A DNA stretch of 52,304 nt from Phycisphaeraceae bacterium (GTDB lineage Bacteria; Planctomycetota; Phycisphaerae; Phycisphaerales; Phycisphaeraceae). The DNA lies in assembly GCA_028280965.1 (NCBI GenBank), contig JANQKT010000217.1, forward strand, positions 1-52,304. Reading direction: 5' to 3'. Below the pieces are notes generated by a model. That model did no database searches. It was not told the origin of the DNA and worked only from the letters and a program-made list of their open reading frames with translations. The first letter of the stretch is position 1, and the number at the start of each line of letters is the position of its first letter. Below, in pieces: positions 20,456 through 29,711 of this stretch. The position numbers and the translations under genes were made by a program.

Positions 20456-21616
20456 ATGGCCCTCCAATCCCAGGCCCCACGGGCCGCTTCCAGCAGGCGG
20501 TACGCCGGCACCACCCGACGCAAGAAGAGCCTGGCCCCGTGGCTGGTGCTTGTCGGCGTCGCGGTCATCATCGCCGGGCTCTACCTCATTTTTTTCGGTA
20601 ACACTGACGACCCCGCCGCCCACGCCGCGACACCGGGCAACGACCCCTCGGCCGAGCCCGCTTCAGCAGCCGGGCAAGCCCCCATCGACCGCAACCCCGC
20701 CTCCTCCGCAGGCCTCGACCGCGGCCCGGGCCCGGAGGCCACGCCAGATCCCGTGCGGCAAACCTATACCCCGCCGTCGATCTCCAATGAGCCCGACCGC
20801 CCGCTCGTCGGCGAGGCGAAGGACCAGTACGAGCTCGGGATGCAGCGGCTCGAAGCGGGCGACCTCGTCGCCGGCCGGGCCCTGCTCAGCGAGGTCTTGT
20901 TCCGCGACGGCGGCCTTCCCCGCCACGAGGCCCAGGCCGTGCGCGAACGCCTGACCCACCTCAGCGAGCAGCACATCTTCAGCAAGACCAATCGCTCAAC
21001 CGAGCAGATCAAGGCCGACCCGATTGTCTCGCTGCACAAGGTCCAGCAAGGCGAGTACCTCGGCCCGATCGCCAACATCTACCGCACGCCCTACCAGCTC
21101 ATCGAGCGGATCAACGGCGTCAAGGCCAACCGCCTGCAGGCCGGCCAGACCCTGCAGGTCCTCAAGGGACCGGTCCACGCCCGGATCGACAAGTCGGAAT
21201 ACCGGATGGACCTGTTCGTCTACGACGACGCGGGCATCCGCATCTTCCTCAAGTCCTACACCGTCGGCCTGGGCGAGTTCGACTCCACCCCCATCGGCAT
21301 GTGGCGGATCAAGCGCGGCTCCAAGGTCGGCCCCGACGCCGCGAACAAGACCGGACCATCCTGGCGCAACCCACGCACCGGCAAGTTTTACGAATCCGAC
21401 GACCCGGACATCCCGATCGGCGAGTACTGGATGGCACTCGAGGGCACCGACGAGAACACCAAAGGCAAGACCGGCTACGGCATCCACGCGACCAACGACC
21501 CGGCTTCCATCGGCCGGCAGGAGTCGATGGGCTGCGTCCGCATGCAGGACAAAGACATCGACGAGGTGTTCTACACGCTTTACGAGGTGGCGAGCACGGT
21601 GGAGATCGTGCCGTAA
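20456..21616 (+). CDS. LysM-containing L,D-transpeptidase (YkuD family)
   Basis: 386 aa envelope enzyme that forms or edits peptidoglycan cross-links. A basic N-terminus precedes one membrane anchor (about 27-48), a proline/alanine-rich linker (to about 115) and a helical TPR-like part. A LysM domain follows (VSLHKVQQGEYLGPIANIYR to AGQTLQVL, about 195-240), then the YkuD domain (from RIDKSEYRMDLFV). The catalytic motif is GIHATNDP then SMGCVRM with the nucleophile Cys. GAGGA lies 7-8 nt before the ATG. It is direct evidence for a peptidoglycan wall in this planctomycete. Confidence 0.92.
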   Translation: MALQSQAPRAASSRRYAGTTRRKKSLAPWLVLVGVAVIIAGLYLIFFGNTDDPAAHAATPGNDPSAEPASAAGQAPIDRNPASSAGLDRGPGPEATPDPVRQTYTPPSISNEPDRPLVGEAKDQYELGMQRLEAGDLVAGRALLSEVLFRDGGLPRHEAQAVRERLTHLSEQHIFSKTNRSTEQIKADPIVSLHKVQQGEYLGPIANIYRTPYQLIERINGVKANRLQAGQTLQVLKGPVHARIDKSEYRMDLFVYDDAGIRIFLKSYTVGLGEFDSTPIGMWRIKRGSKVGPDAANKTGPSWRNPRTGKFYESDDPDIPIGEYWMALEGTDENTKGKTGYGIHATNDPASIGRQESMGCVRMQDKDIDEVFYTLYEVASTVEIVP

Positions 21617-21619
21617 CAA

Positions 21620-22058
21620 CTAGCTTCTTGTTTTGATCTCCACGATCATTCCATCATCGTCAAATCTAATCACTAACTCATCTTGCTTTGGCACAATGAA
21701 TCCCAGCGGGTCCGGCTCGATTGAGCCTAAATAAGTAGAACAGAGCCCCTTCATCCCGCTTTTGATCAGGGTGGCGCAATGGCATGATGCTTTCAATCTC
21801 AGCCTGTGTCATACCATGCAGCTTCGTTGTTTCCACTGAGTACTCAGTATCTCTTTCGGGCTGTGCATTGAGGATGTAATGAATGATCTCCGGGCGCTCA
21901 TCATGATTCGCTATCGTCCATGCTTCACTAAATGATTCAATGGAGTCGAATGTCCGATTCTTTGGAAGCAATGAATAGATCAGAACGCCAGCCAGCAGTG
22001 CAATTACAAGCAGCGCGAATGCTAATCGCCTTCGTCTGAATTGGCAACAGTTTGCCAT
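21620..22058 (-). pseudogene. BamE-like membrane-anchored protein with a one-base frameshift
   Basis: From ATG 22058 the protein starts MANCCQFRRRRLAFALLVIA, an N-terminal membrane anchor, followed by KLHGMTQAEIESIM, a BamE/SmpA-type helix. After GALFY the frame breaks. One extra A at 21733-21734 (T on the coding strand) sends it to an early stop at 21678. Removing that base restores FYYLGSIEPDPLGFIVP and then ELVIRFDDDGMIVEI to a natural stop at 21620, about 145 aa in all. The read-through frame matches the end of BamE-like proteins. The gene lies 19 bp after cysH and is AT-rich compared with its neighbours. It may be a young pseudogene or a sequencing error. Confidence 0.75.
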
Positions 22059-22077
22059 GTATGCCGCCAAACGGTTT

Positions 22078-22836
22078 CTACAACCCGCTCGACATCCGGC
22101 TGTCATCTTCCGCCTTCGTCTGCGGCAGGTGGATCCCGCATTCCTGCGCGAGCCCGCTGAACCGGCCTTCGCGTTCGTCCTGGCCTTCGGTGATCGGGCG
22201 GGTCGAGTGTGTGTCGCCGATCGAGGCGTAGCCCTTCTCGACCAGCGGGTGGTACGGCAGTTCGTGCTTCGCGAGGTATTCGCCGACGTTCTTGCGCGAC
22301 CAGCGGAGGATCGGGTGGACCTTGTAGACGCCGTCCTGGACCTCGACCGGCCTGAGCGTTGCGCGGTGGTCGGTCTGCTCGGCACGCAGGCCGGCGAGCC
22401 AGGCCTTCACATCAAGCTCTTCGAGCGCCCGCTGCAGCGGCTCGACCTTGAAGACCTCGTGGTAGTGGTCCAGGCCCTCGGCATACTCCCAGGTCCGGCC
22501 GTGCAGCGCCTCGTACCGCGCGGGCATGATCCGTGGGCTGTAGACTTTCAGGTTCAGCTTCAGCCGATCGGTGAGCTGACTGACGAATTGGTACGTCTCG
22601 GCGAAGAGGTAGCCGGTGTCGATCAGGATCACGGGGATGTCGGGCACAACCCGCGTCGCGAGATGGAGCATGACGGCGGACTGGGCGCCGAAGCTGGAGG
22701 TCATCGCCAGCCCCCCGCCGAAGGACTCGGACGCCCAGCGGATGATCTCCTCGGCGGGCTGGCCGTCGAGCCGCGGGTTGACTTGGTCGAGTTGCACGGT
22801 CGCGCTGGCGGTCATGGTGGGCACGCGTTGAGGCAT
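22078..22836 (-). CDS. cysH: Phosphoadenylyl-sulfate (PAPS) reductase
   Basis: 252 aa. It reduces PAPS to sulfite with thioredoxin in assimilatory sulfate reduction. The PP-loop-like TSSFGAQSAVMLH is at 46-58, KVHPILRWS near 172, and the catalytic ECGIH at 232-236 (Cys233). The extra cysteine pairs that hold a 4Fe-4S cluster in APS reductases are missing (KVEPLQRAL in their place), so the PAPS-type enzyme is favoured. ATG 22836 is 8 nt after a TATGAT; ATG 22815 (MTASATV) is an alternative. The siroheme gene nearby fits the next step, sulfite reductase. Confidence 0.92.
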   Translation of the reverse strand: MPQRVPTMTASATVQLDQVNPRLDGQPAEEIIRWASESFGGGLAMTSSFGAQSAVMLHLATRVVPDIPVILIDTGYLFAETYQFVSQLTDRLKLNLKVYSPRIMPARYEALHGRTWEYAEGLDHYHEVFKVEPLQRALEELDVKAWLAGLRAEQTDHRATLRPVEVQDGVYKVHPILRWSRKNVGEYLAKHELPYHPLVEKGYASIGDTHSTRPITEGQDEREGRFSGLAQECGIHLPQTKAEDDSRMSSGL

Positions 22837-22844
22837 GATCCCAC

Positions 22845-22850
22845 ATCATA
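22845..22850 (-). promoter_or_regulatory. Near-leaderless -10 of cysH
   Basis: TATGAT on the minus strand, then 8 nt, then ATG 22836. The predicted leader is 0-2 nt. Confidence 0.5.
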
Positions 22851-22885
22851 GGCGATCTGTTTCAGGCGAGATCGGCTTAGGCCGC

Positions 22886-22914
22886 TTCAGCGGCCGGGCG
22901 CAAAGACCTACAAT
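22886..22914 (+). promoter_or_regulatory. Leaderless-type promoter of folK-queE
   Basis: TTCAGC (22886-22891), 17 nt, TACAAT (22909-22914), then exactly 6 nt, then ATG 22921. Confidence 0.6.
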
Positions 22915-22920
22915 GCCTTG

Positions 22921-23418
22921 ATGTCCACCGCCTACCTCGGTTTAGGCAGCAACCTCGGCGACCGTGCCGCGCACCTCCGCGCAGCGCTGAACTCGATTGC
23001 GCGCCTGCCGGGCACGACCTTCACGGATGAGTCCCCGATCTATGAGACGCCGCCGATGGGCCCGCAGGATCAGGGCGCGTACCTGAACATGGTAGTGAAG
23101 ATCAAGACGCGACTCGAGCCTGCGGGACTGGTTGAGCACTTGCAAGCCATCGAGCATTCACTGGGCCGGGCCGAGCCGGAGCACCGCCGACACTGGGGGC
23201 CGCGCGAGATCGACATCGATGTGCTGCTGTTTGGGGATCAGGTGATCGAGACGCCGACGGTGACGGTCCCGCACCCGGGCATGCACGGGCGATGGTTCGT
23301 GCTCAGGCCGCTAACCGACATTGCGCCCGACGCGCAACACCCGACACTGGGCAAAACGGTGGCCTGCCTGCTCGGCGAGCTCGAATCCGCGGGCGTCCCG
23401 CAGGGTGCCGCGGTATGA
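22921..23418 (+). CDS. folK: 2-amino-4-hydroxy-6-hydroxymethyldihydropteridine diphosphokinase
   Basis: 165 aa. It transfers pyrophosphate from ATP to 6-hydroxymethyl-dihydropterin in folate synthesis. The N-terminus is MSTAYLGLGSNLGDRAAHLR, followed by ESPIYETPPMGPQDQGAYLN and the signature HRRHWGPREIDIDVLLFG with the metal-binding aspartates. The stop overlaps the queE start (ATGA), so the two are co-translated. ATG 22921 rather than the TTG just before it is chosen from the -10 spacing. Confidence 0.95.
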   Translation: MSTAYLGLGSNLGDRAAHLRAALNSIARLPGTTFTDESPIYETPPMGPQDQGAYLNMVVKIKTRLEPAGLVEHLQAIEHSLGRAEPEHRRHWGPREIDIDVLLFGDQVIETPTVTVPHPGMHGRWFVLRPLTDIAPDAQHPTLGKTVACLLGELESAGVPQGAAV

Positions 23419-24113
23419 GCGACACGTTGTACATCAACGAGCTGTTCTACTCGCTCCAGGGCGAATCGACCTACGCCGGGCAGCCGTGCGTATTTATCCG
23501 CCTGCGCGGATGTCACTTGCGTTGCAACTACTGCGACACCGAGTACGCCTTCCACGAAGGCGACAAACGCAAGGTCGATCAGATCATCGAACAGTGCTTC
23601 GAGCTAACGGGTGGGGGAGGCGGTTGCGACCTCTACGAAGTCACCGGCGGCGAGCCGCTCTTGCAGCGCGGCGTTCACCCGCTGATGTCTCGCTTGTGCG
23701 ACCTGGGCAAGACCGTGCTTATCGAGACCAGCGGGGCCTGCGACATCTCAGCCTGCGACCCGCGCGTTATCCGTATCATGGATCTGAAAACGCCCGGCAG
23801 CGGCGAGGTTGAACGCAACGACTGGTCAAACATCAACAAACTTAACGATCGCGATGAGGTCAAGTTTGTGCTGACTGGTCGCGCGGACTATGACTGGATG
23901 GTTGAGGTTTTGGAGAGCCACAGGCTGTATGAGAAGGTCAACGCCGTGCTGGTGAGTGCGGTGAACGAAGTGAGGCCTGGGTTGGAGATCACGGGCACGC
24001 CAGGCCTTGCGGTGCGTGATCTGGCCGAGTGGGTCCTGGCCGACAAGCTGCCGGTGCGCTTCCAGACGCAACTGCATAAGCTGGTGTGGGACCCGACCGC
24101 GCGTGGCGTTTGA
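23415..24113 (+). CDS. queE: 7-carboxy-7-deazaguanine synthase
   Basis: 232 aa radical-SAM enzyme. It converts 6-carboxytetrahydropterin to 7-carboxy-7-deazaguanine on the way to preQ0 and queuosine. The cluster motif RGCHLRCNYCDTEYAF has C33, C37 and C40 (C-x3-C-x2-C), and VTGGEPLLQ is the SAM-binding GGE motif. NELFYSLQGESTYAG at the N-terminus is typical of QueE. It overlaps folK by 4 nt (ATGA) and precedes queD by 45 bp. The QueE/QueD pairing makes the assignment firm. Confidence 0.95.
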   Translation: MSDTLYINELFYSLQGESTYAGQPCVFIRLRGCHLRCNYCDTEYAFHEGDKRKVDQIIEQCFELTGGGGGCDLYEVTGGEPLLQRGVHPLMSRLCDLGKTVLIETSGACDISACDPRVIRIMDLKTPGSGEVERNDWSNINKLNDRDEVKFVLTGRADYDWMVEVLESHRLYEKVNAVLVSAVNEVRPGLEITGTPGLAVRDLAEWVLADKLPVRFQTQLHKLVWDPTARGV

Positions 24114-24146
24114 GATGGTGTTGAACCACGGCGCCAACAAGGCCAA

Positions 24147-24152
24147 TACAAT
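24147..24152 (+). promoter_or_regulatory. Leaderless-type -10 of queD
   Basis: TACAAT, then exactly 6 nt (CTCACT), then ATG 24159. queD therefore has its own start even though it follows queE closely. TTGAAC at 24121 is 20 nt upstream of the -10, longer than the usual spacing. Confidence 0.55.
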
Positions 24153-24158
24153 CTCACT

Positions 24159-24521
24159 ATGCGCATCGCGTTAACCAAGACCTTCGGCTTCGAGGCCGCC
24201 CACTTCCTGCCCTGCTTCCCGGAGGGCCACAAGTGCCGGCGTATGCACGGGCACTCGTTCAAGATCGATGTCGTTGTCGAGGGCGAAGTCGATCCGGCCC
24301 GGGGTTTCCTGATCGATTTTGCTGACGTCAAGGCCGCGACCAAACCGATTGAGGAGGCGCTCGATCATCGCGTGCTCAATGAGATCGAGGGGCTGGAGAA
24401 CCCTACCGCGGAGCTGTTGTGCAAGTGGGTGTGGGACCGGCTCAAGCCCGAGCTCGAACTGCTTTCGTGCGTGCGCGTTCACGAGACGTGTACCAGTTCG
24501 GCGGAGTACCGCGGTCACTAG
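24159..24521 (+). CDS. queD: 6-carboxytetrahydropterin synthase (PTPS family)
   Basis: 120 aa. It converts 7,8-dihydroneopterin triphosphate to 6-carboxytetrahydropterin for queuosine. Zinc ligands are His15 (FEAAHFL) and His30/His32 (MHGHSF). The catalytic Cys26 lies in EGHKCRRMHGH. HETCTSSAEY at the end holds the substrate-binding Glu. The motif spacing suits QueD rather than a mammalian-type PTPS, and queE is next door. Substrate comes from a GTP cyclohydrolase such as the FolE2 encoded 23 kb downstream. Confidence 0.95.
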   Translation: MRIALTKTFGFEAAHFLPCFPEGHKCRRMHGHSFKIDVVVEGEVDPARGFLIDFADVKAATKPIEEALDHRVLNEIEGLENPTAELLCKWVWDRLKPELELLSCVRVHETCTSSAEYRGH

Positions 24522-24543
24522 CATCTTCATTATCGACAAGCGC

Positions 24544-25977
24544 TTATGAATCACTTGCCCAGCCCGCGTCTTCCAGGCGTCGGATCAGGGATTCTGTATC
24601 GACCGGCTGCCGATCCGTATCGCGCGCCAATACACGCAGCAGGCGGTTGGTCAGGACCGATTCGAGCGTGTGCGAACGGGACGCGTCGAACTTCTCGATC
24701 TCGTCGATCAGCAACGCGTTACCCGGCTCGAGCATGGCCAGTAGGCCCTGCACGTCTCCGGCACGTCCCCCCAGTTGCCTACGGACGACCGACAACACCA
24801 CCGGCAGCAGCCCCGCGATAATCAGGCCGCGTGTCGCAGTCGCGTGCCGGAGGATCTCATCGAATCGGTCAAGGTCGTTAGCGCGGACGCTTTGTGTCTC
24901 GATACCCTGCTGCACCTGCTTTGCGCGGTGCTTGAGGTAGTTGTACCGCACGATCAGGCTGCGCACGACACGATCGGGCGCGACCGGCCGATCGTAAGCC
25001 GGCACGAGCTCTTGCGGCAACGGATCGATGACCCGTCGGTCCAGGCGACGCGGTCGTTTGGCCGGTTCGATCGGCCGAAGCAGGACCTCGTCCGCATCCG
25101 GGCGGTCGAAGATCGGTGACGGGATGAGGTCGATCTTGATCGAGAGCATCCGCTGCGCTCGCATCTCGTGGATCGCGCGGTAGATCGTCGAGCGTGCCTT
25201 GCGGAACCGCTTGCAGATGTGTACGACGCCGACCCCCCGCCGGTAGGCGCGGTCGATGATGCGCTTCTGTTTCTCCGTCAACGGCCCGGCACGGTCCGCA
25301 AAGACCTCCTGGCTCGGGTGCTCCCGGTCATGCTCCGCGATGAGCATACGCAACGCCTCTGCGCTCCGGCCGGTCCGCTTGCCCAGGTGGTTGAAGATCG
25401 TCTGCGGTACGGCCTGGGTCGCATCGGCCAGCCGGCGGGCACGATTGATCAGCCACGTTTTCTCCGCATCACTCATCCGGCTGAAGCGGGACGCGGCATC
25501 GACGCGCCCGCTCCGCTTGTTTTCGAATGCGTCCAGTGCTGAACGAGGGATCACAACCGTCGGTTTGTCACCCGACGCCCGCACGGCCCAGCGCCAGCGC
25601 AGCCCGCGATCCCGCCAGCGCGCGATCGTCTTGGTGCTCACACCCAGTCGCTCGGCCAGTTCCGCTGTCGTCTCGCCCGGATCGCCCTCATCCGCCGGCA
25701 GCTCGATCGACCGGCTAAGTGTATCGATCAGCAGCCGCAGGTCCGGCCCGAGCACCTCGCCGACCAGCATCACGCTCTCGCTTGGCGGGACCCGACGGCC
25801 GGTCAGCCGGTAGACCGCGAAATCCAGCGGGACGTTCGTCGCCGGATCGAGCTCGTCGTGCCATTTTTCGGCCTGGCGCACGACCTCTGCACGCTTGTCG
25901 GGTGGCGCGTAGAGCAGCTGCCGGGCCAGGTCGGCCAACTCGGTGGACCGGTAGGCCTGGGCGCGCTCGCGTGCCAC
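24544..25977 (-). CDS. Degenerate sigma-70-like protein with extra helix-turn-helix segments
   Basis: 477 aa from GTG 25977, starting 2 nt after the mqnA stop. In order: a helical N-terminus; a MerR-like helix-turn-helix (TTAELAERLGVSTKTIARWR, 103-122); a helical block (171-220); a second helix-turn-helix (PLTEKQKRIIDRAYRRGVGV to TIYRAIHEMRA, 232-274); and a C-terminal block (342-452) aligning with sigma region 2. That block has RYNYLKHRAK, VVLSVVRRQLG in place of LVVSIAKRH, and PGNALLIDEIEKFDASR in place of EGNxxLIRAVEKFDxxR. The aromatic promoter-melting stretch (usually FSTYATWWIRQ) is replaced by LESVLTNRLLR. I infer a planctomycete sigma relative that still may touch core polymerase but may not open promoters. 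Confidence 0.65.
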   Translation of the reverse strand: MARERAQAYRSTELADLARQLLYAPPDKRAEVVRQAEKWHDELDPATNVPLDFAVYRLTGRRVPPSESVMLVGEVLGPDLRLLIDTLSRSIELPADEGDPGETTAELAERLGVSTKTIARWRDRGLRWRWAVRASGDKPTVVIPRSALDAFENKRSGRVDAASRFSRMSDAEKTWLINRARRLADATQAVPQTIFNHLGKRTGRSAEALRMLIAEHDREHPSQEVFADRAGPLTEKQKRIIDRAYRRGVGVVHICKRFRKARSTIYRAIHEMRAQRMLSIKIDLIPSPIFDRPDADEVLLRPIEPAKRPRRLDRRVIDPLPQELVPAYDRPVAPDRVVRSLIVRYNYLKHRAKQVQQGIETQSVRANDLDRFDEILRHATATRGLIIAGLLPVVLSVVRRQLGGRAGDVQGLLAMLEPGNALLIDEIEKFDASRSHTLESVLTNRLLRVLARDTDRQPVDTESLIRRLEDAGWASDS

Positions 25978-25979
25978 GG

Positions 25980-26858
25980 TCAGCCCGCCCCGCCGCCGTC
26001 ATACAGACGCAGTTCGCCCGGCGTTGCGACCAGACCCAACTCGCTGGCCATCCGCCCGAAGCGCGCGACGGCCTCCAGCTCCAGCCGGCCGACGCGGTAA
26101 CGCAGCACATCCACCAGGTAGTGCTCGGCCAACTCACTCGGCCAACCGTGCGCCTCGGCGTAGCGCTCGGCGATCAACAAACGCTCCGGCAGATTCGCAT
26201 CCAGGCGCGCATCGAGCCGTTTCGGCAGATCATCGAGGTCCGTGCCCTGCTTCGCCATCCACATCGCGAAAACGAACGGCAGGCCGGTCAGCTCGTGCCA
26301 CCCCTCGCCCAGATCGAGCTGGTGCGCGTACTGCACGGCCAGGGGCGAGCCGGTCACGACCTTGTCGCCGATGAGCAGCATGGCCTGCGGCGCCTCGTCG
26401 ATCTTCCCCTCGGCGACGCGCTCGCGCGCGTGGTAGTCGATGATGCGCGGGTGCACGCCGAACAGCTTCGAAAGGAGTACCTGGGCGAGCGCGACACTCG
26501 TGTGGCTGTCCGTGTCGGCGTGCAGGATCGTGATCTGATCGATCGGCACCCGGCTGTAGAGCCGGACAGTGAGTGTCGGGCCCTCGCAGCCGATCCCGCC
26601 GACGGGCACAAGCACCAGCGGGGTCGGGCTTGCGAAGTAGTCGATGACCGGGCACAGCGCGATGTCGACCTCGCTGGTTTCGAGGTCGGTCAGCAGCCGC
26701 GCGGGCACGTCGCTGCGCACCGCGATGCCGGGCTCTTCGCCGAGCCCGTCGATGAGCGGCTTGGCGTTGAGGTAGCTCACGCAGCCGATGCGGTGGCGCA
26801 CCGCCGTCCGGGCCGGCGTGCGCTGGGGCGTGTGTGTGTCGGGGCGGACCGGTTTCAT
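25980..26858 (-). CDS. mqnA: Chorismate dehydratase (futalosine menaquinone pathway)
   Basis: 292 aa from ATG 26858 (a second ATG lies directly before it). It removes water from chorismate to form 3-[(1-carboxyvinyl)oxy]benzoate, the first step of menaquinone synthesis through futalosine. Visible: IGCVSYLNAKPLIDGL at the N-terminus, EVDIALCPVIDYF, and GLPFVFAMW. The fold is the periplasmic-binding-protein-like MqnA/MqnD type. GCVSYLNAKPL favours MqnA over MqnD. mqnB, C and D are not here. The sigma-like gene follows with 2 nt between. The frame stays open far upstream, through the divergent regulator gene, but that part is antisense shadow. Confidence 0.9.
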   Translation of the reverse strand: MKPVRPDTHTPQRTPARTAVRHRIGCVSYLNAKPLIDGLGEEPGIAVRSDVPARLLTDLETSEVDIALCPVIDYFASPTPLVLVPVGGIGCEGPTLTVRLYSRVPIDQITILHADTDSHTSVALAQVLLSKLFGVHPRIIDYHARERVAEGKIDEAPQAMLLIGDKVVTGSPLAVQYAHQLDLGEGWHELTGLPFVFAMWMAKQGTDLDDLPKRLDARLDANLPERLLIAERYAEAHGWPSELAEHYLVDVLRYRVGRLELEAVARFGRMASELGLVATPGELRLYDGGGAG

Positions 26859-26865
26859 CATCGGA

Positions 26866-26871
26866 ATTATA
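26866..26871 (-). promoter_or_regulatory. Leaderless-type -10 of mqnA
   Basis: Consensus TATAAT on the minus strand. ATG codons follow after 4 nt (26861) and 7 nt (26858). Only the second fits transcription starting 6-7 nt after the -10. Confidence 0.6.
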
Positions 26872-26917
26872 GGCCACAACAGGCGGCCCCTGCATTCACA
26901 TGCACGGCCTGGCTCGA

Positions 26918-26923
26918 TATCAT
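26918..26923 (+). promoter_or_regulatory. Candidate -10 of the NtrC-type regulator gene
   Basis: TATCAT, then 10 nt, then ATG 26934. The predicted leader is about 3-4 nt. The ATG at 26922 lies inside the element and is therefore an unlikely start. Confidence 0.4.
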
Positions 26924-26933
26924 GCCTGCTCCG

Positions 26934-28319
26934 ATGAACAGTGAAAAAGCAACAACCGAGCTGCCAACCGCGCAGGTCCTGATCGTGGACGACGAGCCGG
27001 ACCACGCCGAGGTTATGGCCGAGGTCCTCCGCCGGCTGGGCCACGTCTGCACGCTTGTCCACGATCTTCCCGGGGCATTGGATGAGCTCAAGCACGGCCA
27101 GTTCGACCTGGTCGTCACCGACCTGAAGATGCAGGGCGAGGCGGACGGGATGGAGGTCCTCGCCGCTGCACGCTCCGGCCAGCAGGCCGCCGAGACGATC
27201 ATGGTCACCGCGCACGGCGACATCCCCACCGCCAAGCAGGCGATCAAGGGCGGGGCCTACGAGTTCATCGAGAAGCCGATCGACCTTGATGTGCTGCGCA
27301 CGCTGTGCACGCGAGCGCTTGAGACGGTGTTTCTGCGGGCGCAGAACACCGAGCTGCGCCAGCGCGTCGATGAGCAGTACGGCTTCGAAGGCATCATCGG
27401 CCAGTCGCCCGCGATGCGCGGGGTGATCGCCAAGCTCAAGCAGGCCGCCCCCGCCAACATCCCCGTGCTGATCACCGGCGAGTCGGGCACGGGCAAAGAA
27501 CTCTTCGCCCAGGCGATCCATAACAATTCGCCGCGGAGTAAGAAGCGGTTTGTCCCGCTGAACTGCGCCGGGCTCAGCGAGAACCTCCTGGAGGACGAGC
27601 TGTTCGGCCATGTGCGTGGCGCGTACACCGACGCCGCCAAGGACCGCGAGGGCCGCTTCGAGTACGCCAACGGCGGGACGCTGTTCCTCGACGAGATCGG
27701 CGACATGCCGCTGACCATGCAGCCCAAGCTGCTGCGCGTGCTTGAGTCCGGCGAGGTCGTCCGTGTCGGCGCCAACGAGTCGAAGCACGTCGATGTCCGC
27801 CTGGTCAGCGCGACCAATCACAACCTCGAAGCGCTCGTCAAGGAAGGCAAGTTCCGAAGCGACCTGTTCTACCGCATCGGCGGGATGGAGATCCGGCTGC
27901 CCGCATTACGTGAGCGTCGGGACGACATCCCGCTGCTGGTGCAGCACTACGCCACACAGTTCGCCGAGCAGATGAACAAGCCCGGCTTGGGCCTCGCCGA
28001 GGACGCGATGACGGCGTTGACGCAGTATGACTGGCCGGGCAACGTCCGTCAGCTGATCAACGCGGTGCAGAACGCCGTCATCGTCTGTGACGGCGAGACG
28101 ATCGAGCCGCGACACCTGCCCCCCGAGATCGCGCAGGGCGGGGATGGCGGCGAAGGCGGCGCGGCCGATACCGCCGGCCTGTCGTTGGACCAGCTTGAGA
28201 AACAGGCGATCCGCAACGCGTTGCAGGTCACTGCGGGCAACCGCGAGAAGGCGGCGAAGATGCTGGGCATCGGGGAGCGGACGCTGTATCGGAAGCTCAA
28301 CGAGTATGGGCTGAAGTGA
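26934..28319 (+). CDS. Sigma-54-dependent response regulator (NtrC type)
   Basis: 461 aa. The receiver domain (about 13-130) has acidic residues D19/D20, phospho-acceptor D63 (VVTDLKM) and K114 (FIEKP). The AAA+ domain has Walker A GESGTGKE (182-189) and Walker B GTLFLDEIGD, and the sigma-54 contact loop reads GAYTDA (229-234) in place of GAFTGA. The Fis-type helix-turn-helix is at the C-terminus (NREKAAKMLGIGERTLYRKL). It activates -24/-12 promoters when phosphorylated. No sensor kinase lies beside it, so the signal is unknown. rpoN is in the same window. The frame is open far upstream, but that part is antisense to mqnA and the sigma-like gene. Confidence 0.9.
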   Translation: MNSEKATTELPTAQVLIVDDEPDHAEVMAEVLRRLGHVCTLVHDLPGALDELKHGQFDLVVTDLKMQGEADGMEVLAAARSGQQAAETIMVTAHGDIPTAKQAIKGGAYEFIEKPIDLDVLRTLCTRALETVFLRAQNTELRQRVDEQYGFEGIIGQSPAMRGVIAKLKQAAPANIPVLITGESGTGKELFAQAIHNNSPRSKKRFVPLNCAGLSENLLEDELFGHVRGAYTDAAKDREGRFEYANGGTLFLDEIGDMPLTMQPKLLRVLESGEVVRVGANESKHVDVRLVSATNHNLEALVKEGKFRSDLFYRIGGMEIRLPALRERRDDIPLLVQHYATQFAEQMNKPGLGLAEDAMTALTQYDWPGNVRQLINAVQNAVIVCDGETIEPRHLPPEIAQGGDGGEGGAADTAGLSLDQLEKQAIRNALQVTAGNREKAAKMLGIGERTLYRKLNEYGLK

Positions 28320-28347
28320 TCACACTCTTTACGCCAGAGATCGATCG

Positions 28348-29199
28348 ATGGACAAAATGACGCTCAACTGGATAGGCTCGGCCGCCGCCCTGCTCTACGC
28401 CGTTGGTATCATCGGTTACGCGTTTACTGGTGAATATGTCGATATCTGCTGGATGACCTCGGCTTTGCTCGTTGGCGTCGCCACCGCCGCGATTGTCGGT
28501 CAGCTTGTCTATCTGTTTACCAGGTCGAACGACCACCACGCCAACATCGGAGTGGTTGTCACGCTTGTTGTCTGTGCGTTCGCGTTCCTGCTGACCGAGC
28601 CCGAACCTGAGGACTACGCGCAGCAGCCGCCCGCGCCGGCGCCTAGTGCGGGCAGTGGCACGACCGTGCAGGTGCCGGCTACCGGCGCGAGCCCCGACGT
28701 CCTACGACAGGCCCAGCAGGCCTTTGTCGGCGAAGAACTCAGCGAGAACCTGCGTATCACCTCGGGCCTGAACCAGGCCATCATCGGCAGCCAACAGATC
28801 GGGGAGGGCGCCAAGCCCGATGACATCGAGCGGATGATCCAGCGGGTCAAGCGGGAAGAGCAACTGCTGGATGATTTTCGCAACTACGTCGATACACAGA
28901 ATGAACGGTTCCGGCGCAAACTCCTTGATGCCGGCGCCACGCCCGAGCAGGCCAACCAGATCGCGATCGCATTTGCGCAGGCTCAGGCGGACACCAATCG
29001 GGAAAACGAGCGGGTTTATGCCGCCTGGCGGGAGATCTTTGATCTGACCAAGCAGGCCCTGGCCGTCTTGCGTGACAACCCGGAGGATTGGCGTTTTGAT
29101 AACCGCAAGGGGATGACGATTTTCAACAACCAAGAGACGATGAGGAGCTACGGGTCGCTGCAGGACCGCATCCAGGCGATCATCGATGAGATCCGATGA
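28348..29199 (+). CDS. Membrane protein with C-terminal coiled-coil, unknown function
   Basis: 283 aa. Three membrane helices (about 7-27, 34-57 and 68-82) are followed by a proline-rich linker (PPAPAPSAG) and a long charged helical domain (from residue 115). That domain has coiled-coil character (for example DIERMIQRVKREEQLLDDFR). ATGs at 28348 and 28357 are both possible starts. The stop overlaps the ispF start (ATGA), and the NtrC-type gene ends 28 bp upstream, so the three may form one operon. I recognise no family. The layout would fit an anchored scaffold, which is a guess. Confidence 0.65.
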   Translation: MDKMTLNWIGSAAALLYAVGIIGYAFTGEYVDICWMTSALLVGVATAAIVGQLVYLFTRSNDHHANIGVVVTLVVCAFAFLLTEPEPEDYAQQPPAPAPSAGSGTTVQVPATGASPDVLRQAQQAFVGEELSENLRITSGLNQAIIGSQQIGEGAKPDDIERMIQRVKREEQLLDDFRNYVDTQNERFRRKLLDAGATPEQANQIAIAFAQAQADTNRENERVYAAWREIFDLTKQALAVLRDNPEDWRFDNRKGMTIFNNQETMRSYGSLQDRIQAIIDEIR

Positions 29200-29711
29200 G
29201 TGAGCACGATCCCGATACCCCTGCCGTATCTCAGCGCGTGGGCCACGGCTTTGATTTACACCGGCTTGAGCCCGGCCATGACTTAATCGTCGGTGGGGTC
29301 AAACTCAAGCACGACCGCGGCTGCGATGCGCACTCGGACGGCGACGTGCTGTACCACGCGGTGACGGACGCGGTGCTCGGTGCGCTCGGGCTGGATGACA
29401 TCGGCCAGATGTTCCCCGACAACGACCCGCGCTGGCAGGGCGCCGACTCGGCGGTCTTCCTGCGTGAGGCGTTCATGCGGATGTCCGCTGCGGGGTACGC
29501 GGTCGGCAACCTCGACTGCACGGTCGTTCTTGAGCGCCCCAGGCTCGGCCCATTCAAGCCAGAGATGAAGGCAAATCTGGCCGAGCTGCTCGGCTGTGAT
29601 GTGGCGCAGGTCAACCTCAAGGCCAAGACGCACGAGGGCGTCGATGCGCTCGGCGAGAACCGTGCGATCGCGTGCCACGCGGTGGTGCTGCTGATCAAGA
29701 ACGACTCATGA
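29196..29711 (+). CDS. ispF: 2-C-methyl-D-erythritol 2,4-cyclodiphosphate synthase
   Basis: 171 aa. It closes the cyclic diphosphate in the MEP route to isoprenoids. The metal site reads GHGFDLHRL (Asp-x-His) with a further His in DAHSDGDVLYHAV. The signature region is SDGDVLYHAVTDAVLGALGL, and KAKTHEGVDALGENRAIACH near the end lines the nucleotide site. The start overlaps the stop of the upstream membrane protein gene by 4 nt. ispD is not adjacent, though in other genomes it is often fused or next door. Confidence 0.95.
   Translation: MSEHDPDTPAVSQRVGHGFDLHRLEPGHDLIVGGVKLKHDRGCDAHSDGDVLYHAVTDAVLGALGLDDIGQMFPDNDPRWQGADSAVFLREAFMRMSAAGYAVGNLDCTVVLERPRLGPFKPEMKANLAELLGCDVAQVNLKAKTHEGVDALGENRAIACHAVVLLIKNDS

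Follow-up and report, generated by a model that had tools for sequence, protein, structure and literature searches.

The sigma-like gene forms an operon with mqnA

In the window, i.e. the whole stretch of 52,304 nucleotides that was analyzed, a gene on the minus strand with a GTG start at 25977 and its stop codon at 24544-24546 encodes a protein that joins a helix-turn-helix (HTH) module to a domain related to sigma factor regions 1.2 and 2. An mqnA-like gene lies upstream in the same direction:

24544..25977, minus strand: gene for the HTH module plus sigma 1.2-2, 477 aa (ORF and translation)
25980..26858, minus strand: mqnA-like gene, 292 aa, upstream and co-directional (Pfam VitK2_biosynth, 2.6e-36)
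26866..26871, minus strand: TATAAT box, 4 bases 5' of the first mqnA ATG (position conserved in most relatives)

Two bases separate the stop codon of the mqnA-like gene from the GTG of the sigma-like gene. The two genes lie side by side in 27 of 33 Phycisphaeraceae loci, in all five loci of the sister family and in 14 of 16 loci from the remaining families of the order; outside the order, no locus read has them adjacent. The spacing, the VitK2_biosynth match and the conservation of this adjacency across the order support the operon with mqnA that a preliminary description of this DNA had proposed. As in the window (26862-26871), in most relatives of the order a TATAAT box stands ~3-9 bases ahead of the mqnA start with no clear -35 box, suggesting that it is probably the promoter of the mqnA operon and that the operon is apparently leaderless. 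A motif search of the window and its relatives found no operator motif upstream of mqnA. The upstream motifs considered as its operator are coding sequence of a divergent ntrC-type gene, and GGTCAA was rejected because its distance varies and its other strand, TTGACC, is a -35-like box of the same divergent gene. The neighbourhood (20456-29711) comprises cysH, folK, queE, queD, the sigma-like gene, mqnA, the ntrC-type regulator and ispF, and the gene order from cysH to ispF is conserved in many Phycisphaeraceae.

In the 477-aa protein the stretches RYNYLK (residues 344-349), VVLSVVRR (393-400) and GNALLIDEIEKFDASR (419-434) lie where the preliminary description had placed them. Its nearest relatives, in MAGs named Phycisphaera sp. 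and Phycisphaeraceae bacterium, are 56% identical, and the named relatives assign the window to Phycisphaeraceae (class Phycisphaerae, Planctomycetota). Of 61 relatives, 59 have a homologue at E<=1e-3, as do 282 of the 298 genomes of the class, tallies that include some genomes matching only via a sigma paralogue. A single-sequence search of genome contigs gave no match; an alignment of wide scope proved too diverse, and a narrow one succeeded.

The N-terminal module contains three HTHs

The AlphaFold2 (AF2) model of the protein (mean pLDDT 89.5), Pfam and the alignments of relatives delimit the following parts:

25513..25680, minus strand: HTH 1, winged MerR/excisionase-like, residues ~100-155 (Pfam HTH_23 6e-10, HTH_17 5e-7)
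25321..25470, minus strand: HTH 2, residues ~170-219 (AF2 helices 170-186, 191-202 and 206-219)
25141..25281, minus strand: HTH 3, HTH_38/resolvase-like, residues 233-279 (Pfam HTH_38 4.7e-6)
24607..25026, minus strand: degenerate sigma domain, residues 318-457, with region 1.2 (the RYNYLK helix) and regions 2.1-2.4 (structure and profiles)
24625..24675, minus strand: former promoter-melting and -10 recognition segment, residues 435-451, altered (alignment and motif tables)

Run on the window protein alone, Pfam recognized HTH domains only, namely the HTH_23, HTH_17 and HTH_38 matches listed above, and it matched nothing in the N-terminal 95 residues. In the AF2 model HTH 1 consists of helices 104-111 and 115-123, strands 129-132 and 140-144, and helix 145-154, and it holds the near-invariant motif STKTIxRWRxxGLRWRW (conserved form STKTIARWRxxGLRWRW). 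HTH 2 has no Pfam match of its own in the window protein; its family consensus, ..VAxHLAxRTGRAxETIRxLLxxHD, is conserved class-wide. HTH 3 is formed by helices 235-246, 251-258 and 262-279. The DNA-binding module noted earlier ahead of the sigma part is thus present, but with three HTHs rather than two, HTH 2 having been missed. The description of one HTH as MerR-like fits the winged, MerR/excisionase-like HTH 1, but the Pfam MerR score (18.8 bits) is below the 28.2 cut-off, and HTH_23 and HTH_17 fit better. We infer that this module binds DNA.

The C-terminal domain has a sigma region 1.2-2 fold

Residues 318-457 of the AF2 model aligned with E. coli sigma70 at a VIA-align Z of 12.2 (rmsd 3.1 Å over 136 residues) and with M. 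tuberculosis SigB at 11.9, mycobacterial SigA/SigB giving ~11.9; since a chance arrangement of helical domains can give Z ~13, the fold match was weighed jointly with the intact homologues described below and with the register of the sequences. The best PDB matches in a Foldseek search with the window model were nearly all sigma chains, at weak E-values for the whole model (0.03 and up) because a single domain of a multi-domain protein is matched, and the VIA-align scores were used instead.

HMM searches gave a split result: the window protein alone did not reach the Pfam Sigma70_r2 cut-off, whereas a profile made from the C-termini of 40 short forms, with intact sigmas excluded, matched four sigma factors encoded in the same genome as the window (best-domain E 4e-14, 2e-6, 3e-4 and 1e-3, Z=4000). 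All four matches are in register with region 2, and the one at 1e-3 is an RpoD-like protein of 628 aa. In addition, the short-form relative L010 alone clears the Pfam region 2 cut-off (30.7 versus 24 bits). These data indicate that the C-terminus is a genuine sigma region 1.2-2 fold, in agreement with the region 2 skeleton recognized in the preliminary description, and that the window protein is of sigma-70 ancestry.

The window's 4.2 Mb genome holds a large set of sigma factors, Sigma70_r2 matching 42 other places in it. The closest true sigma to the window protein within this genome is a 370-aa paralogue (L110, G000:C255:6556-7437) whose regions 2 and 4 are intact and whose region 1.2 helix resembles that of the window protein, and ORFs of 330-370 aa resembling it occur in nearly all relatives.

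Intact homologues are complete sigma factors and region 4 was lost

The order of domains, DNA-binding first and sigma region 2 last, had been regarded as the reverse of that in ordinary sigma factors. This does not hold: intact homologues of ~550-600 aa occur across Planctomycetota, in which the same HTH module is followed by complete sigma regions 1.2, 2 and 4 in normal order. Behind the same N-terminal module, Sigma70_r2 and Sigma70_r4 match L037 at 1.6e-13 and 1.6e-11 and L050 at 3e-12 and 3e-19, respectively. Beyond the order of the window, the relatives that were examined are all complete sigmas, and other planctomycete classes also hold full-length homologues with the HTH-then-sigma order. 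Because this order is common to the intact homologues, a permuted or reversed sigma is ruled out; the window protein is a sigma factor with an added front module that later lost its tail.

A region 4 profile built from intact homologues, sister-family members among them, matched all five sister-family proteins (1e-17 to 1e-28) and, weakly, 10 of 16 proteins from four other families of the order (4e-9 to 5e-3), and it matched none of the 33 Phycisphaeraceae sequences nor anything in their flanking DNA. No short-form relative that was read has region 4 in its flanks, which rules out that it was split off nearby. A tree of the HTH module places the sister family together with Phycisphaeraceae (support 0.994) and sets the other degraded families apart in their own clade (0.973), with nil support at the base of Phycisphaeraceae itself. 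The sister family, which is the nearest to Phycisphaeraceae, has an intact sigma domain. This grouping indicates two or more independent decays of the sigma domain. In families f2-f5 of the order (for example L058, L063 and L144) a weak region 4 is kept and the region 2 motif is lost, an independent degradation nearly opposite to the Phycisphaeraceae pattern.

The promoter-melting and core-contact faces are altered in a domain under selection

The reported loss of the aromatic promoter-melting stretch was confirmed in the window protein, where the changes in E. coli numbering are F427L, T429S, Y430V, W433N and W434R, with Glu at S428, so that none of F427, T429, Y430 and W433 is retained. Intact homologues keep the melting residues (F427, S428, T429, Y430 and mostly W433). 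Among the 33 Phycisphaeraceae, F427 is retained in 25, T429 in 6, Y430 in 9 and W433 in 15, and position 428, Ser in intact homologues, is Glu or Asp in 78%. We infer that the window protein opens no promoters.

Region 2.2 has changed as well. We take positions 403, 407 and 409 to be core contacts from the residue roles in E. coli sigma70. In the window protein the core-contact residues are retained in part, the positions reading A403, E406, P407 and N409; across Phycisphaeraceae D/E403 is found in 20 of 33, D407 in 1 of 33 and N409 in 7 of 33, and position 407 is D or E in 41 of 42 intact homologues. With these positions eroded, the sequence is no guide to polymerase docking: the window protein possibly docks on core polymerase, or this ability may be gone.

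The remnant is nevertheless under purifying selection. The ORF is intact in all 33 Phycisphaeraceae loci read, and in the closest short-form pairs, several of them with dS near saturation, the dN/dS of 0.12-0.22 for the sigma part equals that of the HTH module, and the linker often has much higher values. Within the family, region 2.1 matches HTH 2 and HTH 3 in conservation, with the 2.3-2.4 helix close behind. Conservation is highest in the HTH module both within the family and within the window's genus, where its identity is 63-68% compared with 47-54% for the sigma part. Given this difference and the dS saturation, the constraint on the sigma part in this genus is real but weaker.

Proposed role of the sigma-like protein

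The ancestor was a complete sigma factor (regions 1.2, 2 and 4) behind a ~300-residue N-terminal module of three HTHs, a form kept across Planctomycetota. In Phycisphaeraceae, region 4 was lost and the face of region 2 that opens promoters was remodelled, with selection retaining the HTH module, the position in the mqnA operon and the fold of regions 1.2-2. The HTH module would locate an operator, and the sigma-like domain would serve as a docking module that recruits or blocks RNA polymerase through the beta-prime clamp helices, or that binds a sigma-binding partner instead, and would not open DNA itself. Our best explanation, to which we give roughly even weight, is therefore a site-specific DNA-binding regulator derived from a sigma-70 factor, whose sigma-like domain docks on polymerase or a sigma-binding partner without opening DNA. 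A regulator rather than an initiating sigma, as suggested earlier, thus survives as the best reading, with both the melting residues and region 4 lost. The sequences point to retention of the domain for some interaction, for which docking on core would be the natural guess; as the core-contact face is altered too, a use like that of PhyR with another partner may be nearly as likely.

Several alternatives were weighed against such a docking regulator. The protein could be an ordinary HTH regulator whose sigma remnant acts off the polymerase, in a structural, dimerising, or ligand- or partner-binding role, as in PhyR. This is a reading of some weight though rather doubtful: the melting and core-contact faces are both relaxed, the HTH module is the part best conserved in family and genus, and PhyR provides a precedent in which the promoter- and core-binding regions of a sigma-like domain are degenerate (PMC8103513), but the conservation of region 2.1, on a level with HTH 2 and 3, and that of the 2.3-2.4 helix, nearly as high, exceed the needs of a scaffold, and none of the adjacent genes that were identified encodes an anti-sigma factor. 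It is improbable that the protein still initiates transcription, with the HTH module anchoring upstream DNA in place of region 4 and an altered region 2 opening DNA. The persistence of W433 and F427 in 15 and 25 of 33 family members would suit this, as would the weak region 4 likeness of the N-terminal HTHs (Pfam Sigma70_r4 matches 14 of 24 members, a true region 4 in only two); on the other side stand the acidic residue at 428, the loss of T429/Y430/W433/W434, D407, N409 and region 4, and the absence of all four of F427, T429, Y430 and W433 from the window protein.

A split sigma, with region 2 here and region 4 on a separate protein, follows the precedent of SigO-RsoA in Bacillus (PMC8103513), and the window's genome has some region-4-only ORFs, at best candidates for a conserved partner. 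Region 4 is missing from the flanks of every short-form relative read, which makes this arrangement very unlikely. Hardly credible is a decaying, pseudogene-like remnant with a functionless sigma part: region 4 loss, motif erosion and faster change in the window's genus would be expected of one, but the ORF is intact in every family locus read, the sigma part evolves at the low dN/dS given above and the operon is conserved. On balance, the docking regulator remains our preferred reading. We further propose, quite tentatively, that a phylum-wide sigma with a built-in triple-HTH module gave rise, in two or more independent conversions inside a single order, to a regulator that does not initiate transcription and holds polymerase at chosen DNA sites by way of a remodelled sigma region 2.

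As one order holds intact and dismantled versions of the same sigma factor side by side at one conserved locus, the evolution of a regulator from a sigma factor is directly testable there. The intact homologues would be sigma factors carrying their own operator-reading domains, in a phylum whose transcription is little studied.

Comparison with known systems

The literature searched contained no paper describing this family, which is not proof that none exists. With the sigma-70 family, especially the intact planctomycete homologues, the window protein shares the fold and register of region 1.2-2 and, with those homologues, the N-terminal HTH module; in contrast, it lacks region 4, its melting residues are lost and its core-contact residues eroded. 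The nearest precedents are PhyR and SigO-RsoA, each of which differs in defining features (PMC8103513, PMC5898713). PhyR, an alphaproteobacterial sigma-factor mimic, is likewise a regulator with a sigma-like domain whose promoter- and core-binding regions are degenerate, but it has a receiver domain and binds the anti-sigma factor NepR, whereas the window protein has an HTH module instead, no region 4 and no Pfam match to Response_reg. Similar to the window protein, the SigO-RsoA system of Bacillus subtilis includes a polypeptide with region 2 and without region 4. This protein, RsoA, is small and supports initiation together with SigO, whereas no region 4 partner is encoded near the window gene. 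RsoA is not known to have an HTH module.

Planctomycete ECFs with N-terminal extensions (the former ECF87-ECF89), none of which has been studied experimentally (PMC8103513), come from the same phylum and carry, like the window protein, an extension ahead of the sigma core. By definition an ECF has only sigma 2 plus sigma 4, which sets the window protein, with region 1.2 present and region 4 lost, apart from this group. In L137 (G453:C154), a 370-aa sigma from another part of the phylum, sigma region 1.2-2 directly follows the initial portion of the N-terminal module (positions 8-86) and the HTHs are missing, an architecture that is possibly an intermediate.
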